Shown here piece after piece: positions 18,119 through 59,130 of a stretch of 64,000 bases of DNA. The stretch is taken from positions 62,001-126,000 of the forward strand of contig NZ_JQMP01000003.1 in assembly GCF_000744775.1 (NCBI RefSeq). Direction: 5' to 3'. This DNA comes from Thermorudis peleae. GTDB taxonomy: Bacteria > Chloroflexota > Chloroflexia > Thermomicrobiales > Thermomicrobiaceae. Every line of letters begins with the position of its first letter. The first letter of the stretch is position 1. The translations under genes and the position numbers were made by a program. The notes under the pieces are model-generated. The model did no database searches. It was not told the DNA's origin and saw only the letters and a list, made by a program, of their open reading frames with translations.

Positions 18119-18150
18119 GTTTCCAAATCCCTCATAGGTACGGACAAAAC
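18119..18150 (-). repeat. Degenerate CRISPR repeat with a 2-base insertion
   Basis: The unit differs from consensus by two extra bases near its left end (TTTCCAAATCCC) and an A for G in the GGACAAAAC end. It is intermediate in decay between the terminal fossil and the regular repeats. Confidence 0.85.
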
Positions 18151-21100
18151 TCGGCTGGACTGCTCGCATTCCCCATCCCCACCTCGGGTTTCAATCCCTC
18201 ATAGGTACGGGCAAGACTTGCGCTCGACCCGCAGACCGTGCGTGACCGTGCGATGTTTCAATCCCTCATAGGTACGGGCAAAACCGTACGGCGTTCTGCC
18301 GTATGTATGAAGTCTGGGAGTTTCAATCCCTCATAGGTACGGGCAAAACGCAGCCCAATGGCAAAGCCGTGGTGGCCCCTGACGAGGTTTCAATCCCTCA
18401 TAGGTACGGGCAAGACATTGCCGCCAACCCACCGGAACATGCTGAGCAGATGTTTCAATCCCTCATAGGTACGGGCAAGACCTACCTCAGCCTCTACGAC
18501 GTGCGTGCCGAGTTGGTGTTTCAATCCCTCATAGGTACGGGCAAGACGTTATTCGAAAAGATCGTGGCATATGCCGCAGAGAAGTTTCAATCCCTCATAG
18601 GTACGGGCAAGACAAACAATCAGGCTCACGAGCGCATTTGGGCACACTCGGCAGTTTCAATCCCTCATAGGTACGGGCAAGACACGTACCAGGTGTGGTT
18701 GGGGGTGCTGCGCGAGGGCAGTTTCAATCCCTCATAGGTACGGGCAAGACGGTGTCTCGAGGACTGGCATGCCGATCGGGGGAGGGTTTCAATCCCTCAT
18801 AGGTACGGGCAAAACCTGGGGTGGGGGAAACAGCGGAACTGGATGCTATCGCTTGGCGGTTTCAATCCCTCATAGGTACGGGCAAAACTCGCCGAGGCTG
18901 GCAACCACATGCTCGATGACTCCGGCGTTTCAATCCCTCATAGGTACGGGCAAAACGCGTGCTTGCTCCCGGACACGGACTCCGGTTGCCAGGTTTCAAT
19001 CCCTCATAGGTACGGGCAAAACGGTGAAGAGTCTCGTAGCAATTGCAACTGTTGTGCGTTTCAATCCCTCATAGGTACGGGCAAAACCGTTGCAGGAACG
19101 GGATGGACTGCGAGTGTTGACTCTGGTTTCAATCCCTCATAGGTACGGGCAAAACCATCCGCCTTGTTGACACTCATCGGTTCCCCCTTATCGTTTCAAT
19201 CCCTCATAGGTACGGGCAAAACAAGATTGTCTTCCCGGGGAAGCCCCTCCGGGAAGACAGTTTCAATCCCTCATAGGTACGGGCAAAACGCCCGCTAAGA
19301 GTGAGTACCCCCCTGCGGCACTTGGGTTTCAATCCCTCATAGGTACGGGCAAAACTCACCGACGAGCTGAAGGAAGACAACCTAACTGTGGTTTCAATCC
19401 CTCATAGGTACGGGCAAAACCGTTGCCATCGCCACGATTTTCTCGACTGGGAGGTCGCGTTTCAATCCCTCATAGGTACGGGCAAAACCTCGGGCTCTGG
19501 TTGTGGCTCTGGCTTCGCTTCTGAGTTTCAATCCCTCATAGGTACGGGCAAAACGAAATTACCGCTGATCCCACTCTCTCGGACGAGTGGAGTTTCAATC
19601 CCTCATAGGTACGGGCAAAACTGACGGCATTCTTGAGGACGCCGAAGGCTGGAATGGGTTTCAATCCCTCATAGGTACGGGCAAAACCTGCACATCGGAC
19701 TGGAGTTGTCCGATTCGGGTGAGTTTCAATCCCTCATAGGTACGGGCAAAACGAGCGACGGATTCAGCATCTTGAAGACCGACTCGCTGTTTCAATCCCT
19801 CATAGGTACGGGCAAAACGCTGGGACGACGTACGGCGTCTACGTCGGGCGCAAGTTTCAATCCCTCATAGGTACGGGCAAAACCGTGACACTCGATACCT
19901 TCCCGTAATGACCCGACGCCGTTTCAATCCCTCATAGGTACGGGCAAAACCGAGATCGAGGCATGCGTGAGGCCATGCGTGTCCAAGTTTCAATCCCTCA
20001 TAGGTACGGGCAAAACAGCGGTCACGTGTCTGGGAGACGTAGCGCAGGAGCGGTTTCAATCCCTCATAGGTACGGGCAAAACATGACGAGCCCTCCGCGA
20101 TCGGTACGACGGTCACGAGTTTCAATCCCTCATAGGTACGGGCAAAACCGTCCGCTGCTGCCAACTGAGCGAGGTGAGCGCTGGTGGTTTCAATCCCTCA
20201 TAGGTACGGGCAAAACCTGCCAACGCCGTCGGCGTGAGGTCGACATCCGGCGTTTCAATCCCTCATAGGTACGGGCAAAACAAGGAGGTTCCCATGCCGG
20301 AACGCGCAGAAGCGCTCGTTTCAATCCCTCATAGGTACGGGCAAAACCGTACTTGCTCGGGAGCCCGGCCTGGCGGGCGACGGCGAGTTTCAATCCCTCA
20401 TAGGTACGGGCAAAACTCGCCCGGTAATCTCTTGGTTCCGGATGATCATCCTGTTTCAATCCCTCATAGGTACGGGCAAAACCTTTCCTCCATATTATAT
20501 TAGATATACGCCCGGCTGGTTTCAATCCCTCATAGGTACGGGCAAAACCTGCGCATTCTGCATCCAGAGCCGCCCCCAGCGAAGGTTTCAATCCCTCATA
20601 GGTACGGGCAAAACCATACTGTTCGTGCTCAATCCCGATTGAGCGGACGTTCGTTTCAATCCCTCATAGGTACGGGCAAAACCATGACCACGGCGAGCGG
20701 CACGATCGCCCGTCTCTGCGTTTCAATCCCTCATAGGTACGGGCAAAACGGAACGGCCAGCGTGATCCGCGCGTTCCGCGGCGGAGGTTTCAATCCCTCA
20801 TAGGTACGGGCAAAACTCAACCGCGTCTTGCGCACTGGCGAAGCAGCATCCGTTTCAATCCCTCATAGGTACGGGCAAAACCCGCGCACAGCAGTCATAC
20901 TCACCGCGAGGCCGGTGTTTCAATCCCTCATAGGTACGGGCAAAACGATTACCCGAAAGAGTTTGAACTCCTGTTACCGCAGTTTCAATCCCTCATAGGT
21001 ACGGGCAAAACTCCCGAACGCCATAGGTTGCCACCGCCGCGGAGTCCTGTTTCAATCCCTCATAGGTACGGGCAAAACGCACTTCCACACTGGTTGTGCC

Positions 21101-21413
21101 CGATGTTGACATCCTGTTTCAATCCCTCATAGGTACGGGCAAAACTGCTTCGGTGACGGCGCTCCTTCTCAGCGCTCAGCCTGGTTTCAATCCCTCATAG
21201 GTACGGGCAAAACGATTGGCAAAGCCATTGGCCGCGCCGGCGGTGAGCGGTTTCAATCCCTCATAGGTACGGGCAAAACTGGGCCGCGAATTCGCGCACC
21301 GCCTTTGCGACCGGGGTTTCAATCCCTCATAGGTACGGGCAAAACGACAGGCATGTCCACGTGCTTCCTCGGCGTTCCAGCACGTTTCAATCCCTCATAG
21401 GTACGGGCAAAAC

Positions 21414-21543
21414 CTCCGGCCGATGCCAGTTGAGCGCCGCCTTGACGTGTTTCAATCCCTCATAGGTACGGGCAAAACCTCCGGCCGATGCCAGTTGAGC
21501 GCCGCCTTGACGTGTTTCAATCCCTCATAGGTACGGGCAAAAC
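21414..21543 (-). repeat. Tandem duplication of one CRISPR spacer-repeat unit
   Basis: Two consecutive spacers, 21414-21448 and 21479-21513, are identical over 35 bases and separated by one normal repeat. This indicates slippage or recombination duplicating a spacer-repeat unit rather than independent acquisition. Confidence 0.95.
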
Positions 21544-24300
21544 CCGAGCCAACACGTCTTTCATGAAGCGCAGAATGTCGTGTTTCAATCCCTCATAGGT
21601 ACGGGCAAAACTTGCGCACCCTTTCCCAGCGTCCCGACGTCGTCGAAGTTTCAATCCCTCATAGGTACGGGCAAAACCGCGCGGAGATGCTCGTCCGTCA
21701 CGCGGCCGTATGTCCGTTTCAATCCCTCATAGGTACGGGCAAAACCGTACCCAATTCCCTGCGTGAATTGATCCTTGCGGTGGTTTCAATCCCTCATAGG
21801 TACGGGCAAAACGGCCGCCAGAATCCGTATCCATCACAAAGCTTGTCAAGTTTCAATCCCTCATAGGTACGGGCAAAACGGTTGGTCACATGACCACCCC
21901 CTCTTCTGTTCACACCTGGTTTCAATCCCTCATAGGTACGGGCAAAACCATCGATCGTAGGAGAAGACGAAGAAGAGGAGGTGGGTTTCAATCCCTCATA
22001 GGTACGGGCAAAACATGCTCGCCTCACCGAAGGCGCTCTCGCGCTTCTTGTTTCAATCCCTCATAGGTACGGGCAAAACACGTACCATTTTCCGAATGGG
22101 GGGATAGATGGACAAAGAGGTTTCAATCCCTCATAGGTACGGGCAAAACAGTGTCGTCACCGAGACCACACTGCCAGCCGCGGCGTTTCAATCCCTCATA
22201 GGTACGGGCAAAACGGTTGCCGGGCGGCCAATGTGCTCGGCCTGCGTAGAGTTTCAATCCCTCATAGGTACGGGCAAAACACCGTTCCGGTACGGAGCGA
22301 TACCTTTGCCGTTGGATTGTTTCAATCCCTCATAGGTACGGGCAAAACTCGGCGTTGTCCCAGGTTGTCCACCAGGAGGTGGAGAAGGAGTTTCAATCCC
22401 TCATAGGTACGGGCAAAACAACTTTGTCTTCTCTACCGCGTCACCGACGATGGCAGGTTTCAATCCCTCATAGGTACGGGCAAAACTGGCCTCGATGTCT
22501 TTCTTCTCCTCGATGACGACTACATTGTTTCAATCCCTCATAGGTACGGGCAAAACACCGTGACGGTGATGGCGATCATCGGCATTGTCTTCCTGTTTCA
22601 ATCCCTCATAGGTACGGGCAAAACCCAGGCCTTCGCTTGTTGATCCGGCGGGAGAAGCCGGTTTCAATCCCTCATAGGTACGGGCAAAACTGTGCTCGAG
22701 GCAGCCATCGCCGCCCTCGAGCAACCCGTTTCAATCCCTCATAGGTACGGGCAAAACGAGAAGTATCGTCTTCTCGATGATTCTTATTATCGATAGTTTC
22801 AATCCCTCATAGGTACGGGCAAAACACGGAGTAACAAGCGTAAGGGCATGAGGGGTAAGGTTGTTTCAATCCCTCATAGGTACGGGCAAAACGGCCAGCA
22901 GCTCGTCAGCCGCGACGCTCGTGCCATGGTTTCAATCCCTCATAGGTACGGGCAAAACAGCCCGGCGCGAGCGCGCTCAACATCGTGCTCGCTGATGTTT
23001 CAATCCCTCATAGGTACGGGCAAAACTAGCCGAGCGCGGACAGCACCAGGAGCGACACGCTCGTTTCAATCCCTCATAGGTACGGGCAAAACAACGCGGA
23101 GAGAACCACGTTAGGTGAGCGAGCCAAAGTTTCAATCCCTCATAGGTACGGGCAAAACGAGAAGCACGGGAAGCCTCGGCCGTCGCGCGGGATACGTTTC
23201 AATCCCTCATAGGTACGGGCAAAACACCACGACCCTCCACGGCGCTGGCTCGGGCCGGAACCGTTTCAATCCCTCATAGGTACGGGCAAAACGCTGCAGC
23301 AACGCGGGCCGGAGGCAAAAATCTGGGCGTTAGTTTCAATCCCTCATAGGTACGGGCAAAACAGTCTTCGTAAACGTAAGCTCATGATACGGTTTACCGG
23401 TTTCAATCCCTCATAGGTACGGGCAAAACCGCACGAGCTGCATCGTCGTCCCCCCTTAGCACCCAGTTTCAATCCCTCATAGGTACGGGCAAAACATGGA
23501 CAACCTTACTGCGGCAAAACCGGGTGGTGACACAGTTTCAATCCCTCATAGGTACGGGCAAAACGTTGTCAAGCCCCTACGGCACTGTTTTTCAGGTACC
23601 GGTTTCAATCCCTCATAGGTACGGGCAAAACACTGAGGCCGCGCTGAGGCTGGCGCGGCTTTTGGAGGTTTCAATCCCTCATAGGTACGGGCAAAACGAC
23701 GACGAACGAGAGGAGAAGGCACCGGTGATCGAGAGTTTCAATCCCTCATAGGTACGGGCAAAACCACGTCCCCTTCCCTGCGGAACCGGAACGGATACCG
23801 CTGTTTCAATCCCTCATAGGTACGGGCAAAACCGGCCCTTCGCAGCCGTAGAGGCCGGGAACGAAGACTTGTTTCAATCCCTCATAGGTACGGGCAAAAC
23901 GGTGGGCGCTCAGTCTGGTTCATGCGCGCCCAGCTGGTTTCAATCCCTCATAGGTACGGGCAAAACCGCCGGATTGAGCTCGCGCTTGACCGGCTGGTCA
24001 CGGTTTCAATCCCTCATAGGTACGGGCAAAACTTTGCTGCGCGGTGTGGTCGCTCACCACTCCCGCACGTTTCAATCCCTCATAGGTACGGGCAAAACTC
24101 AGAAGTAGGTCACGGTTCCACGTCTCGAGCACGTCCGTTTCAATCCCTCATAGGTACGGGCAAAACCCTCGAGAAGGGAGAGAGCCGTGAACATCGTGAA
24201 CCTGTTTCAATCCCTCATAGGTACGGGCAAAACCGCTTGCTGAGCGTGGCTTCATTCTCCGATACACCGTGTTTCAATCCCTCATAGGTACGGGCAAAAC

Positions 24301-43509: not shown

Positions 43510-43905
43510 GGCGTCGTCCTCCTTCGCTCTCCGCCTCCCTCCTCATAAGGAGAAGGGAAGGAACCATGGGAAAGAGAAGCGAACGCGGCAACTGCGCACT
43601 CAGCCCATGCCCATATTCACTTACACGAGAAGAAGGCGAAGAGGGCCGTGGGGCGTGTGATCGTTGATACGGCTGCGCTTCCCCTGTCCTTTGGCCCTCG
43701 CACACGGGCTCGCTGACCGCGGCAGCGTCCACCTTCCCGCGAGTGCGCTCTTCGCCAGCAGCACTATACCACGCTTTCCTCGCGTTGGCTGCTTCTCCCT
43801 CTCCTCGGACTCGCGTGACGGGAACAGAACCGTTGCCCAGCCGCGCCCAGCGCATGCAGCATCCAGCCCCGCGCCCGGCGGAGAGTAAGGGACCCGGACT
43901 GTAGC
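43510..43905. other. Intergenic stretch without a recognisable gene
   Basis: About 400 bases upstream of the macro-domain gene. A minus-strand TATAGT (43763-43768) could be a -10 but no -35 is convincing. No open frame here has a ribosome-binding site or protein-like composition. Confidence 0.4.
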
Positions 43906-55337: not shown

Positions 55338-56330
55338 CTACTGGATCAGGAACGGCTGGGCCAGGCTATTGTTGATGTCGTTTACCTCGACCACGCTATT
55401 CTCCAAGTCGACCACCGCCACCAGGTATCCCTGCTGCTGCGGCGTGCGTGGCAAGGCTCGCACCGTCACCTGGCAACTCGCCTGCTGGCCCGGCGCCAGC
55501 GGCCCCACGCTGCAGGTGCCGAGCAGCAGGGCGCTGGGGCTGGGCGTCGGTCCAGGCACGAAGAGCAGGGCAACAGTGCTGGCCGGCGCAGAGGCGGTGC
55601 CCTGGTTGGCAACCGTGATCGTGGCCCGCAGCGGCCCACCGCGGGCTGCACGCGGGTGAGCGTCGAGCGCGCTTACCACCAGGTCAGGCTGGGGCACTGA
55701 CACCGACGGCGGGGAGGTATTTCCAGGAGGAGCAGCCCCGGTACTGCCCCCACTACCCGTGCTCCCACTCGAGCCACCACCGCCGGCGTTGCTATTCCCA
55801 CCGCCGGAAGGTGGCGGACAGGGCAAGACGTTAAGACATGGCAACACCGGGATCACGACGAACGGCGGAGAGGACGGTGGGGGCGGCGGTGGAGGCGGTG
55901 GGTTCCCATGCGAGCCACCACCGCCGGTGTTGCCATTCCCACCACTACTGGTGTTCCCATTCGAACCACCACCAGATGGCGGCTGACATTGTGAGACACA
56001 CGGCGTCACGGTAACCACGACGGACGGCGGAGAGGGCGAAGTCGAGCGTGAGGCCATCGACTCAAAGGCCCCCACATCACAGTGGGTGCCCGGTGGTTGG
56101 GGGCGCTCCAGCCCGTTCTGGTCAACGGTCACCGGTGCGCCGTTCCAGTCCACACATGCCGGAGCGGCAGAGATCGCTGGTGACGTGTCCGCTGGGATAA
56201 AAAGACCAGGGAGACCACCATAGAGTTGCAAGGTCGATGCCAGGTTCGGGACAACCGTGATGCCCCTCAGGCTGCCACCGCACGAGTCGTCATTGGCCAG
56301 CACGGCCTGCCGCACCTGCACGGTGAGTCC
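55338..56330 (-). pseudogene. C-terminal half of a split beta-helix/CARDB surface protein gene
   Basis: The frame begins in mid-fold with VQVRQAVLANDDSCGGS and lacks a ribosome-binding site. It continues with the classic end of Pmp-like beta-helix proteins (SPAISAAPACVDWNG, PQPPGTHCDVGAFE). Long Gly/Asn/Ser and poly-Pro linkers follow, then a CARDB-like domain at the C terminus (PDLVVSALDAHP, then ATITVANQGTASAPAS). The matching N-terminal half, with signal peptide, lies about 1.5 kb away on the same strand at 57.9-58.96 kb, and phage genes intervene. The two probably formed one gene, although decay from two paralogues is possible. Confidence 0.75.
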
Positions 56331-56494
56331 AGCTTGACAGTTGTGAAAGCGGTATCGGCGGCAGCCTTGACGACCTTCCCGGTCGTGCCGTCGAACCGCA
56401 CGACGTCACCGGCATTCAAGTCAGTACCGGCGATACCAATGAAGTGCTCAATCGCTTCGACGAGGCGAAGCTTGGTAATCGTCACTTGTGCCAT
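56267..56494 (-). pseudogene. Phage head-decoration/DUF2190-like protein, truncated
   Basis: The frame starts well, with GAGGAGG before the ATG. MAQVTITKLRLVEAIEHFIG and then GTDLNAGDVVRFDGTTGKVV resemble small phage capsid-associated proteins that precede the major capsid gene. After FTTVKLDS the reading changes to a Cys/Arg-rich tail that is the antiphase of the adhesin C-terminal half, so the gene is cut by the junction at about 56.33 kb. Confidence 0.65.
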
Positions 56495-56505
56495 TGTTTC
56501 CTCCT

Positions 56506-57072
56506 CTACCAGAGTTCACGTACCGACACCGTGCGGCGTCGGCGTTCATCTTCTGGGATGACTTGCGGTGTCCCGCCGTTTGGCGTCGGCGGTACGCCCG
56601 TCCGTGGGCGAATCTCGTCTGCGTGCTTCGTCAGCAACTCAAGCTGCTCCAGCGGATCAAGCCGCGCTAGTGCTTCCTGCACGAGCTTCGGGGCCGCTTT
56701 CATTTGCGTGTCGATATGCCGCTGGAGGACAGCCATGTATCGCTGCAAGCGCTGGTCGGCCTCACGGAGCCGGGCAAGTTCTGCCTCAAGCTCGGCAAGA
56801 CGGGCAGCGCGCTCCTCCGCAAGTTTCTGCCATTCCTGGTTCTCGGCGAGCGCTTTTTCCCGGGCGCGGCGTTCGACTTCGGCCCGTTCTTTCTCCGCCT
56901 TGCGGCGTTCCCGCTCAAGCCGTTCAGCGATGATCCTGTCGATCTCCCGTTGCTGCTCTTCGCTAAACGTGACGCGAGCCACGGGCTTCTCGACCGGCTG
57001 CTCAGCTTGCTCGGCCTGCGCCTCCGGCAGCGCTTGCGTTTGCTCGTCCACGCGGTCAGGTTCAACGCTCAT
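56506..57072 (-). CDS. Phage scaffold-like protein (coiled coil)
   Basis: This 188-residue, highly charged protein has an acidic N terminus (DRVDEQTQALPEAQAEQAEQ) and a central long Glu/Arg/Lys coiled coil (EEQQREIDRIIAERLERERR onward). It ends in a C-terminal segment with VPPTPNGGTPQVIPEDERRR. Length, charge and the position directly before a decoration-like gene match phage head-scaffold proteins of the DUF4355 kind. GGAGGG with a 5-base gap precedes the ATG. It may still be expressed, but without the capsid gene it has no obvious use. Confidence 0.6.
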   Translation of the reverse strand: MSVEPDRVDEQTQALPEAQAEQAEQPVEKPVARVTFSEEQQREIDRIIAERLERERRKAEKERAEVERRAREKALAENQEWQKLAEERAARLAELEAELARLREADQRLQRYMAVLQRHIDTQMKAAPKLVQEALARLDPLEQLELLTKHADEIRPRTGVPPTPNGGTPQVIPEDERRRRTVSVRELW

Positions 57073-57208
57073 GGATTCCCTCCACGATTTCCGGACGTGT
57101 CCCGTCACTGCAGATGTAGCGGTGTTCAACGGTCAACGCGAGAAAAACCCAGCACCTTGTGCGGTGCCGGGCCAGGGGTGGGAAAGGAACAGAAGGAGGA
57201 CGCAGTGA

Positions 57209-57553
57209 TTACAACACGATCGCTCCAGGTGGCGGGTGGAGCAGCGGATCGTCTGGGTTATCGACCGCCACCCCATGGGGTGCAAGATCAGCGAGAAACA
57301 CGTCGGTTGCGAAGGCGGCAAAGAGCAAAGCGGACGACATGAGGACGGCAAGCGGCATCTCAGTCCGGGCAGGCGTGGGGTTGCCCTGTGCAAGGTCGGC
57401 AAGGCGGCGCGTGAGGGCATCTTCGCCGAGTGCCGCCAGCCGCTGATCGCCTGACCATGCTCGCTGCACGCCCTGCGGCGAATCCGTCAGCTCAAGCACC
57501 GCGTGGGCACCGTTACGCGAGAGGTGGATACGCTGCAGCAATGTCTTCACCAC
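57209..57553 (-). CDS. Hypothetical phage-segment protein
   Basis: This 114-residue frame begins with two GTG codons, overlaps the end of the preceding fused frame by about 40 bases, and ends 137 bases before the scaffold-like gene. It begins KTLLQRIHLSRNGAHAVLEL and has a hydrophobic stretch (MPLAVLMSSALLFAAFATDV). No family recognised. Position between other head-morphogenesis genes suggests a small phage protein, but expression is uncertain. Confidence 0.4.
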   Translation of the reverse strand: MVKTLLQRIHLSRNGAHAVLELTDSPQGVQRAWSGDQRLAALGEDALTRRLADLAQGNPTPARTEMPLAVLMSSALLFAAFATDVFLADLAPHGVAVDNPDDPLLHPPPGAIVL

Positions 57554-58964
57554 CTTCCATCAGCACGGTCAAGAACCACGCGCGAACCTCAGGGTCGCCA
57601 AGGATGATCATGCTTTTCGCATTGCCCATTTGTGCACTATAGAGCGCTTCCATGAGCATCGACATGATTTCAGTATAGCGATTGGTATAGACCTTTGCCA
57701 TGTACGGGTCGGCAAACACGCCAGGATAGAATACTTCGTCGTCACGGTAGCCCCTCCCAATCTGGTACTGGTTGAGGCGGTGCAGGTACTGCTTGTCTTT
57801 TGGCACACGGGCGAGGCGGAGGTTGAGCAACGAGCGTTCTGCATTGAATCCTCCAAACAGCTGAAAGTTCTGAAAGTTCGCCAACAGCCTGCTGGCGAGC
57901 TGGACAGTCGCCGTCCCCGACGTTCCTGGGGCGAGACCAAGCGCATAGACTGATCCATTTTGGGCGATCGTCACGAAGGAGAGCGTGGCTATCGTGTCTG
58001 GATGGAGCCCAAGAGCGCCACCGTAGCCGTCGTTCACTGTGTTCAGGCTGAGGGTGCTGTTGACCATGGTGAGCGCCCTGAAGACAAAGATTCCACCGCC
58101 GCTGTGCTGAGCATGGTTGTTTGTGAACCAGCTGCCACTGACGTATCCATTAAATACGGATAGCGCACCGCCATCACTCCCGGCCGTGTTGTTCGTGAAG
58201 ATGCTGGCATCCACAGTGAGTGAACTCGGGAAGTATTGGGCGATAGCACCGCCGTCGCCGGCGATGGCACGATTCCCATCTATCACAGAATCATTATGAA
58301 TCCGAACGGTACTGGACTGTAAGCCAGTAAACACTGCGCCACCAGCGGAACCGGCCGTGTTATCGCGCAACCCGCCGCGGTTGATCTCAAGCTGCCCCGT
58401 ACGGACCACGATCGCACCGCCGACACAGTCGGACCCTTCCGGAACAACAGGACAGCCATTGATGCTCACCAACCCGCCCTGCAGGGTCACATCCTGCAGG
58501 ATCAGGCTACCCCCGTCGATCCAAAAGAAGCGGAAGGGCTGAGAAGCCGTACGCTTGATCGTCGCCCCATTGCCGATGATCGTCAGGGAGAGGCCATCGC
58601 TCAGCATGGGGAAAAGGGTCATGGACGGTCTCGACCACCCGAGGGAACCGCTCAGGGTCTGGAGCGCTACGTCATTGACTGTGTACGTATAGTTCGACGA
58701 GAGGACAAGGGTGTATGGTGTGCCGGAGCCAGAAGCAGCTGTCGCGCAGTCAGGAGCATATGCCCGGTTCACGAACAGGTAGACCACCGCTTCGAACAGT
58801 GAGCAAACATGGTAGAACTCGCTATCAGCGATGGAAACTGCCCGGCCAACGTAAATCGTTGTGCCAGCGGCCCGGACTGTTGAAGAGCCCGAGAAGAAGC
58901 TCCCGAGCGTTAACGCGCATGCGAGGAGGACACCGCCCCAGCGGAGCCCAGCGGCCTGCTTCAT
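57513..58964 (-). pseudogene. N-terminal half of a beta-helix (Pmp-like) adhesin fused to a phage protein tail
   Basis: This frame has 483 codons. It has a signal peptide (KQAAGLRWGGVLLACALTLG, then VRAAG) and right-handed beta-helix repeats with GGAI/GGAV/GGGIF turns (NTAGSAGGAVFTG, NNTAGSDGGALSV, NNHAQHSGGGIFVF). After VQLASRLLAN the composition changes abruptly to a phage-like tail (FNAERSLLNLRLARVPKDKQ, then ending in GGEDIAAAYPPLA). GGAAGG and a good promoter support expression of the front part. The missing end of the adhesin is at 55.3-56.3 kb. The chimera would export a beta-helix without its normal C-terminal domain. Confidence 0.75.
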
Positions 58965-59102
58965 CGTGAACAACCTTCCTACGGCCTGCGCCGCGCACGC
59001 TTGCCGGAACCGTGACGGAACGTCTTCGGCCGCGCCAAGCTGCCTGCGCACGCCGCCAGGGGAGCTGGCAGCTGGTCTGGCTGGTGACGATCAGTCATGG
59101 CC

Positions 59103-59130
59103 ATCATAGCAGGACTGGTTTGACTGTCAA
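59103..59130 (-). promoter_or_regulatory. Promoter TTGACA-N16-TATGAT
   Basis: On the minus strand a perfect -35 (59125-59130) and a TATGAT -10 (59103-59108) at 16-base spacing stand about 140 bases upstream of the adhesin start codon. Confidence 0.7.

Follow-up and report, generated by a model that had tools for sequence, protein, structure and literature searches.

The split gene and the DNA between its halves

The window, i.e., the whole stretch of 64,000 nt of Thermorudis peleae DNA analyzed here (C3:62001–126000), contains a minus-strand beta-helix gene that runs from 58964 to 55338 and whose two halves lie around about 1.5 kb of DNA which, judged by gene order and similarity to a prophage in a genome of the same family (G009:C8), is phage head DNA. 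The N part of the gene (57876–58964, minus strand, 363 codons, last residues LLAN) lies in an open reading frame at 57513–59051 that continues directly into the phage slice and reaches its stop at 57513. The C part (55338–56339, minus strand), which is family-like from a Cys codon at 56339, corresponds to an open reading frame at 55338–56321 whose frame differs from that of the phage gene start on the other side of the junction (56494 versus 56321, a difference of 173 bases). The preliminary description of this DNA, which had reported an insert of about 1.5 kb joined in frame on one side and out of frame on the other, is therefore borne out.

Profile searches identify both parts. Chlam_PMP scores above the cut-off in the N-part frame (E 3.5e-7) and Beta_helix below it, and no NCBIfam family is found there at E values up to 0.1. 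The C part contains choice-of-anchor Q (NF041518, E 6.1e-8) and CARDB (E 1.2e-11), both above their cut-offs, which agrees with the earlier assignment of N- and C-terminal parts of a Pmp-like protein on the same strand. An adhesin function is not named by any of these profiles, and the adhesin of the preliminary description is a putative one. All the pieces of such a protein are thus present, but they are spread over two separate frames, where a choice-of-anchor Q/CARDB protein has one continuous reading frame. Upstream of the ATG at 58964 lies a promoter-like site, TTGACA-16-TATGAT (59103–59130, minus strand), with 11 of 12 consensus bases; the region contains three such sites against 0.8 in shuffled sequence, which is no proof of function.

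The slice is coding sequence of 60% G+C, and its pieces, all on the minus strand, follow each other in the same order as in the prophage. It opens with a MuF-like minor head gene of which only the tail is present (57513–57875). This tail is in frame with the N part, is 42% identical over 74 aa to the prophage protein and matches phrog_20397 (E 3e-5). A small ORF of the head module follows (57209–57553; 30% over 109 aa, E 3e-6), for which the profile searches give no family and whose similarity to the prophage is lost under stricter search settings. Then comes a whole head scaffold gene of 188 codons (56506–57072; 53% over 187 aa; phrog_14063, head scaffolding, E 6.9e-7), and finally 49 codons from the start of a cement, or head decoration, gene (56348–56494; 57% over 49 aa), which make up only the first third of a gene whose prophage relative is a 131-aa protein with Phage_cement_2. 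Since the slice starts within one gene and stops within another, it does not form a gene unit. The T. peleae genome has it in a single copy.

Relatives of the gene and of the phage

Uninterrupted homologues of the gene were sought as places where a single frame without a stop contains both parts, with less than 250 nt between them, a definition under which interrupted relatives could not appear. The search gave 13 distinct places and one spurious row in a phage contig, leaving out five loci that belong to the window's own gene, and five of the 13 places, picked by eye, were compared more closely. A paralogue in the same genome (C3:147.4–149.4 kb) carries PMP-type beta-helix, choice-of-anchor Q and CARDB in the same order as the split gene, and a homologue on contig C1 of G009 has the same parts in the same order; unlike the gene in the window, both are uninterrupted. 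These count as homologues by similarity: the window has no match anywhere at the DNA level to the G009 locus, so the G009 gene and the paralogues are not proven empty sites. The uninterrupted gene that the preliminary description proposed to look for in relatives thus exists as a homologue in the paralogue, in G009 and in G013, but none was found at the same place. Together with the colinear intact phage module, these homologues support its main claim, that phage head genes split a beta-helix gene.

The CARDB segment of the split gene is 81% identical in DNA to that of the paralogue. We also note that the CARDB tails at C3:147.4 kb and at C1:183.6 kb are 81–84% identical in DNA to 55338–55730 of the window, while the three proteins with these tails otherwise differ, or differ in fate; the tail looks as if it were common to, or had been converted between, genes.

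The module to which the slice belongs is whole in the 37.8 kb G009:C8 contig, whereas T. peleae has only a cut piece of it. The same contig carries terminase, portal, MuF, major capsid, tail terminator, tape measure and endolysin genes, as well as an integrase with additional matches to DNA invertases, a gene set which suggests that the likely parent of the slice was a temperate tailed phage. Its MuF-like protein (L038 12660–14723) holds an HELGH stretch, which presumably resembles a metallopeptidase motif, and Pfam gives Phage_Mu_F only.

The preliminary description had also proposed to find the parent prophage, and here the outcome is divided: G009 supplies a colinear module, but in the T. 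peleae genome the major capsid, portal and tape measure of the G009:C8 phage have no match (G009 itself was positive each time), nor does its terminase in a search run with no positive control, an absence that applies only to relatives of this one phage. The earlier statement that no integrase is seen likewise holds in part, in that neither an integrase nor another recombinase was found within the slice, but the genome has one relative of the prophage integrase, a recombinase at C1:93699–95201 that is 36% identical. A translated comparison of this place gave many low-scoring rows, and among the matches listed only the recombinase was counted; its neighbors are ordinary-looking by eye.

Scaffold matches occur in 5 of 158 genomes of the class: T. 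peleae itself, the G009 prophage and, weakly, G104, G021 and G072. In G021 the capsid, portal and tape measure of the G009:C8 phage have relatives too. Among 41 genomes, which include no second member of the T. peleae genus, G018 also gives a weak match to the single scaffold protein. Besides T. peleae, no genome of the 158 was seen with the slice inside a beta-helix gene, G009 being the one of the four other matching genomes that was inspected at its match; within that scope, the same arrangement in relatives, which the preliminary description had named as evidence against its reading, was not encountered. Searches of viral contigs with either the scaffold or the MuF tail by itself give no match, while a two-row scaffold alignment finds one weak locus there (L049) and nothing among genome contigs. 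The scaffold has no match among phage records and the slice DNA none among plasmids; the MuF tail finds a single weak phage, PaV-LD (E 0.09, two records), and the N part one weak match from Bacilli among genome contigs.

A different set of head genes lies close by. A block with major capsid (phrog_212, E 9.4e-77), portal and terminase genes is found at C3:129.7–135.6 kb (L043 3733–9611). It begins 3.7 kb past the right end of the window, and 8.8 kb separate it from the split gene. The beta-helix gene on contig C1 of G009 adjoins terminase and portal genes, and the relatives of these two in T. peleae (55% and 61%) lie at C3:130.8–135.6 kb. The block matches neither the slice nor the core proteins of the G009:C8 phage, which indicates a different kind of phage and not a visible source.

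The window also holds a CRISPR array (18121–24300) with 93 repeats (GTTTCAATCCCTCATAGGTACGGGCAAAAC and variants) and 92 spacers of 35–43 nt. A link between the array and the slice, the split gene or the G009 phage was considered and rejected: the best of the 92 spacers has 13 mismatches to the slice (shuffle minima 13–14), 13 to the split gene (11–14) and 11 to the phage (11–12). Against L049, a distant phage contig, one spacer has 11 mismatches (shuffle minima 13–14), and one fits window position 43848 with 8 mismatches of 36, against a shuffled minimum of 12 obtained from a first-pass spacer set without the variant repeats.

The two junctions

At the right junction recognized phage sequence extends to 56348 and family-like sequence has begun by 56339; at the left junction family-like sequence extends to 57876 and phage similarity is recognized from about 57782. 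The preliminary description had reported a TVQ-x6-LAN motif at both junctions. The motif is indeed present at both, with a spacing of x5 and not x6, but as a duplication produced by the insertion it has to be rejected. In the three nearest intact relatives the junction sequences are adjacent rungs, which argues that the TVQ...LAN stretches belong to the normal protein, and both copies are sequence of the intact family. Specifically, the interval between a first rung that reads VVLAD or ILAN and a second that reads LTVQ or VTLT is 16 residues in the T. peleae paralogue and 11 in both G009 and G013, and it includes a Cys. When the C part is read upstream of its listed start it gives FHNCQAGLTVQ, which includes the expected Cys. 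From this rung spacing, the gene is missing some ten codons at most, and possibly none.

An imperfect direct repeat is a better clue to the junctions than TVQ/LAN, though only a suggestive one. The left junction has a tandem repeat of CTGAAAGTT (57861–57879, minus strand, 2.1 copies, 100%), just as had been described, and this is included in the left copy, CTTTCAGAACTTTCAGCTG (57858–57876, minus strand), of a 19–20 bp repeat whose right copy is CTTTCACAACTGTCAAGCTG (56330–56349, minus strand). The two copies have 17 of 19 paired bases equal and one gap, where a target duplication calls for an identical direct repeat, and on both sides the repeat is in the beta-helix reading frame. With 20 nt taken from each side and 5000 trials of each kind, no shuffle reached as high a score, whereas 15 local draws and 11 window draws did; with flanks of 30, 40 and 60 nt it was reached by 2, 1 and 2 shuffles and by 17–32 of 5000 real draws. 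These are post hoc statistics, since the repeat was noticed before it was tested, and skipped draws were kept in the 5000. The direct repeat is missing from the list given by a search for ungapped repeats, which likewise shows no inverted pair at the ends of the slice. Slippage between the two units of 9 bp at the left junction could account for the differences between the copies.

None of the frames has been closed, which would be surprising if the pseudogene were old. In simulations of substitution, all six frames remained open in a fraction 0.47 of 300 runs at 0.01 substitutions per site, falling to 0.14 at 0.02 and to 0.027 at 0.04. If the repeat copies were once identical, a drift of about 10% would make open frames unlikely, so that either the insertion seems recent or the two copies never were the same. 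For the CARDB segment (129–130 codons) the C part has dN/dS of 0.46 and 0.37 against two paralogues in the same genome, while the paralogues have 0.12 against each other. The raised ratio fits relaxed constraint, which may predate the insertion.

Origin of the split

The reading we favor, with a probability of roughly 0.7, is that broken phage DNA was captured by end joining and that the gene was left as a pseudogene. A temperate phage of the G009:C8 type would have supplied a linear fragment of about 1.5 kb, broken within two head genes, which would have been joined into a break in the beta-helix gene, in the loop between two neighboring rungs; the gene would have lost no more than some ten codons, possibly none, and a short imperfect repeat would remain. 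The N part now ends in a phage-derived tail of some 120 codons while the C part has no start or export signal of its own any more, and the split gene has presumably lost its function. No match to Ku (PF02735) is found in the T. peleae genome, which is 96.78% complete (the B. subtilis control was positive, 1/14), and Ku-dependent end joining is thus not indicated; from this, together with the missing recombinase in the slice, we infer joining independent of Ku, either by alternative end joining or by a ligase that the phage would have supplied.

The split is real in the assembled sequence, and it amounts to ordinary genome damage unless the assembly is in error. That the join is a chimera of the assembly or library, with phage DNA from the sample wrongly attached and the gene whole in the cells, is unlikely, even though the split is known here from assembled sequence alone, no close relative has the same arrangement and the genome is estimated to be 1.77% contaminated. 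The rest of a phage of the G009:C8 type is absent from the assembly, so its source would have gone unassembled, and the join sits in a 1.5 Mb contig of a 4-contig assembly. We consider it distinctly improbable that a whole prophage integrated in the gene and later lost nearly all of its DNA. The G009 parent is temperate and has an integrase, and the unrelated head-gene block at C3:129.7–135.6 kb is a further piece of phage in this genome, but here the host gene is flanked on both sides by head genes and not by attachment-site ends or an integrase, and two deletions would be needed, each stopping within a few bases of host sequence.

It is very improbable that a target-duplicating recombinase inserted the slice and left a duplication of 15–20 bp. 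The imperfect repeat at both junctions, rare in shuffles and draws with 20-nt flanks, would fit such an event, but its copies differ at two bases and by a gap, the test was post hoc, wider flanks find 17–32 equals among 5000 draws, and the slice has neither a recombinase nor an ungapped repeat or inverted pair listed at its ends. Just as little weight falls on the idea that the exported beta-helix part and the phage tail form a new surface protein under selection: the N-part frame is open and continuous into the slice and has a promoter-like site upstream, but the anchor-like C part is severed and its CARDB segment shows the higher dN/dS given above. Slimmer still is the chance of both at once, i.e., that a recombinase which places pieces of phage DNA in host genes produced the repeat as a genuine target duplication, and that the exported beta-helix with its MuF tail has been kept as a new surface protein.

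To the surface protein and to the phage, capture of broken phage DNA would be ordinary damage. If reads confirm the split, however, it would be a natural capture of phage DNA within a host gene with both junctions readable and Ku not found, and would help to ask how bacteria without detected Ku join foreign DNA. PMC6990116 describes alternative end joining in bacteria as well as phage ligases that carry out Ku-like joining in E. coli. The T. peleae junctions are like those treated in that account in their short junction similarity, and Ku was not found in T. peleae; the events in the parts of the paper considered here are chiefly deletions with 1–9 bp of microhomology, whereas in T. peleae about 1.5 kb of DNA has been inserted.
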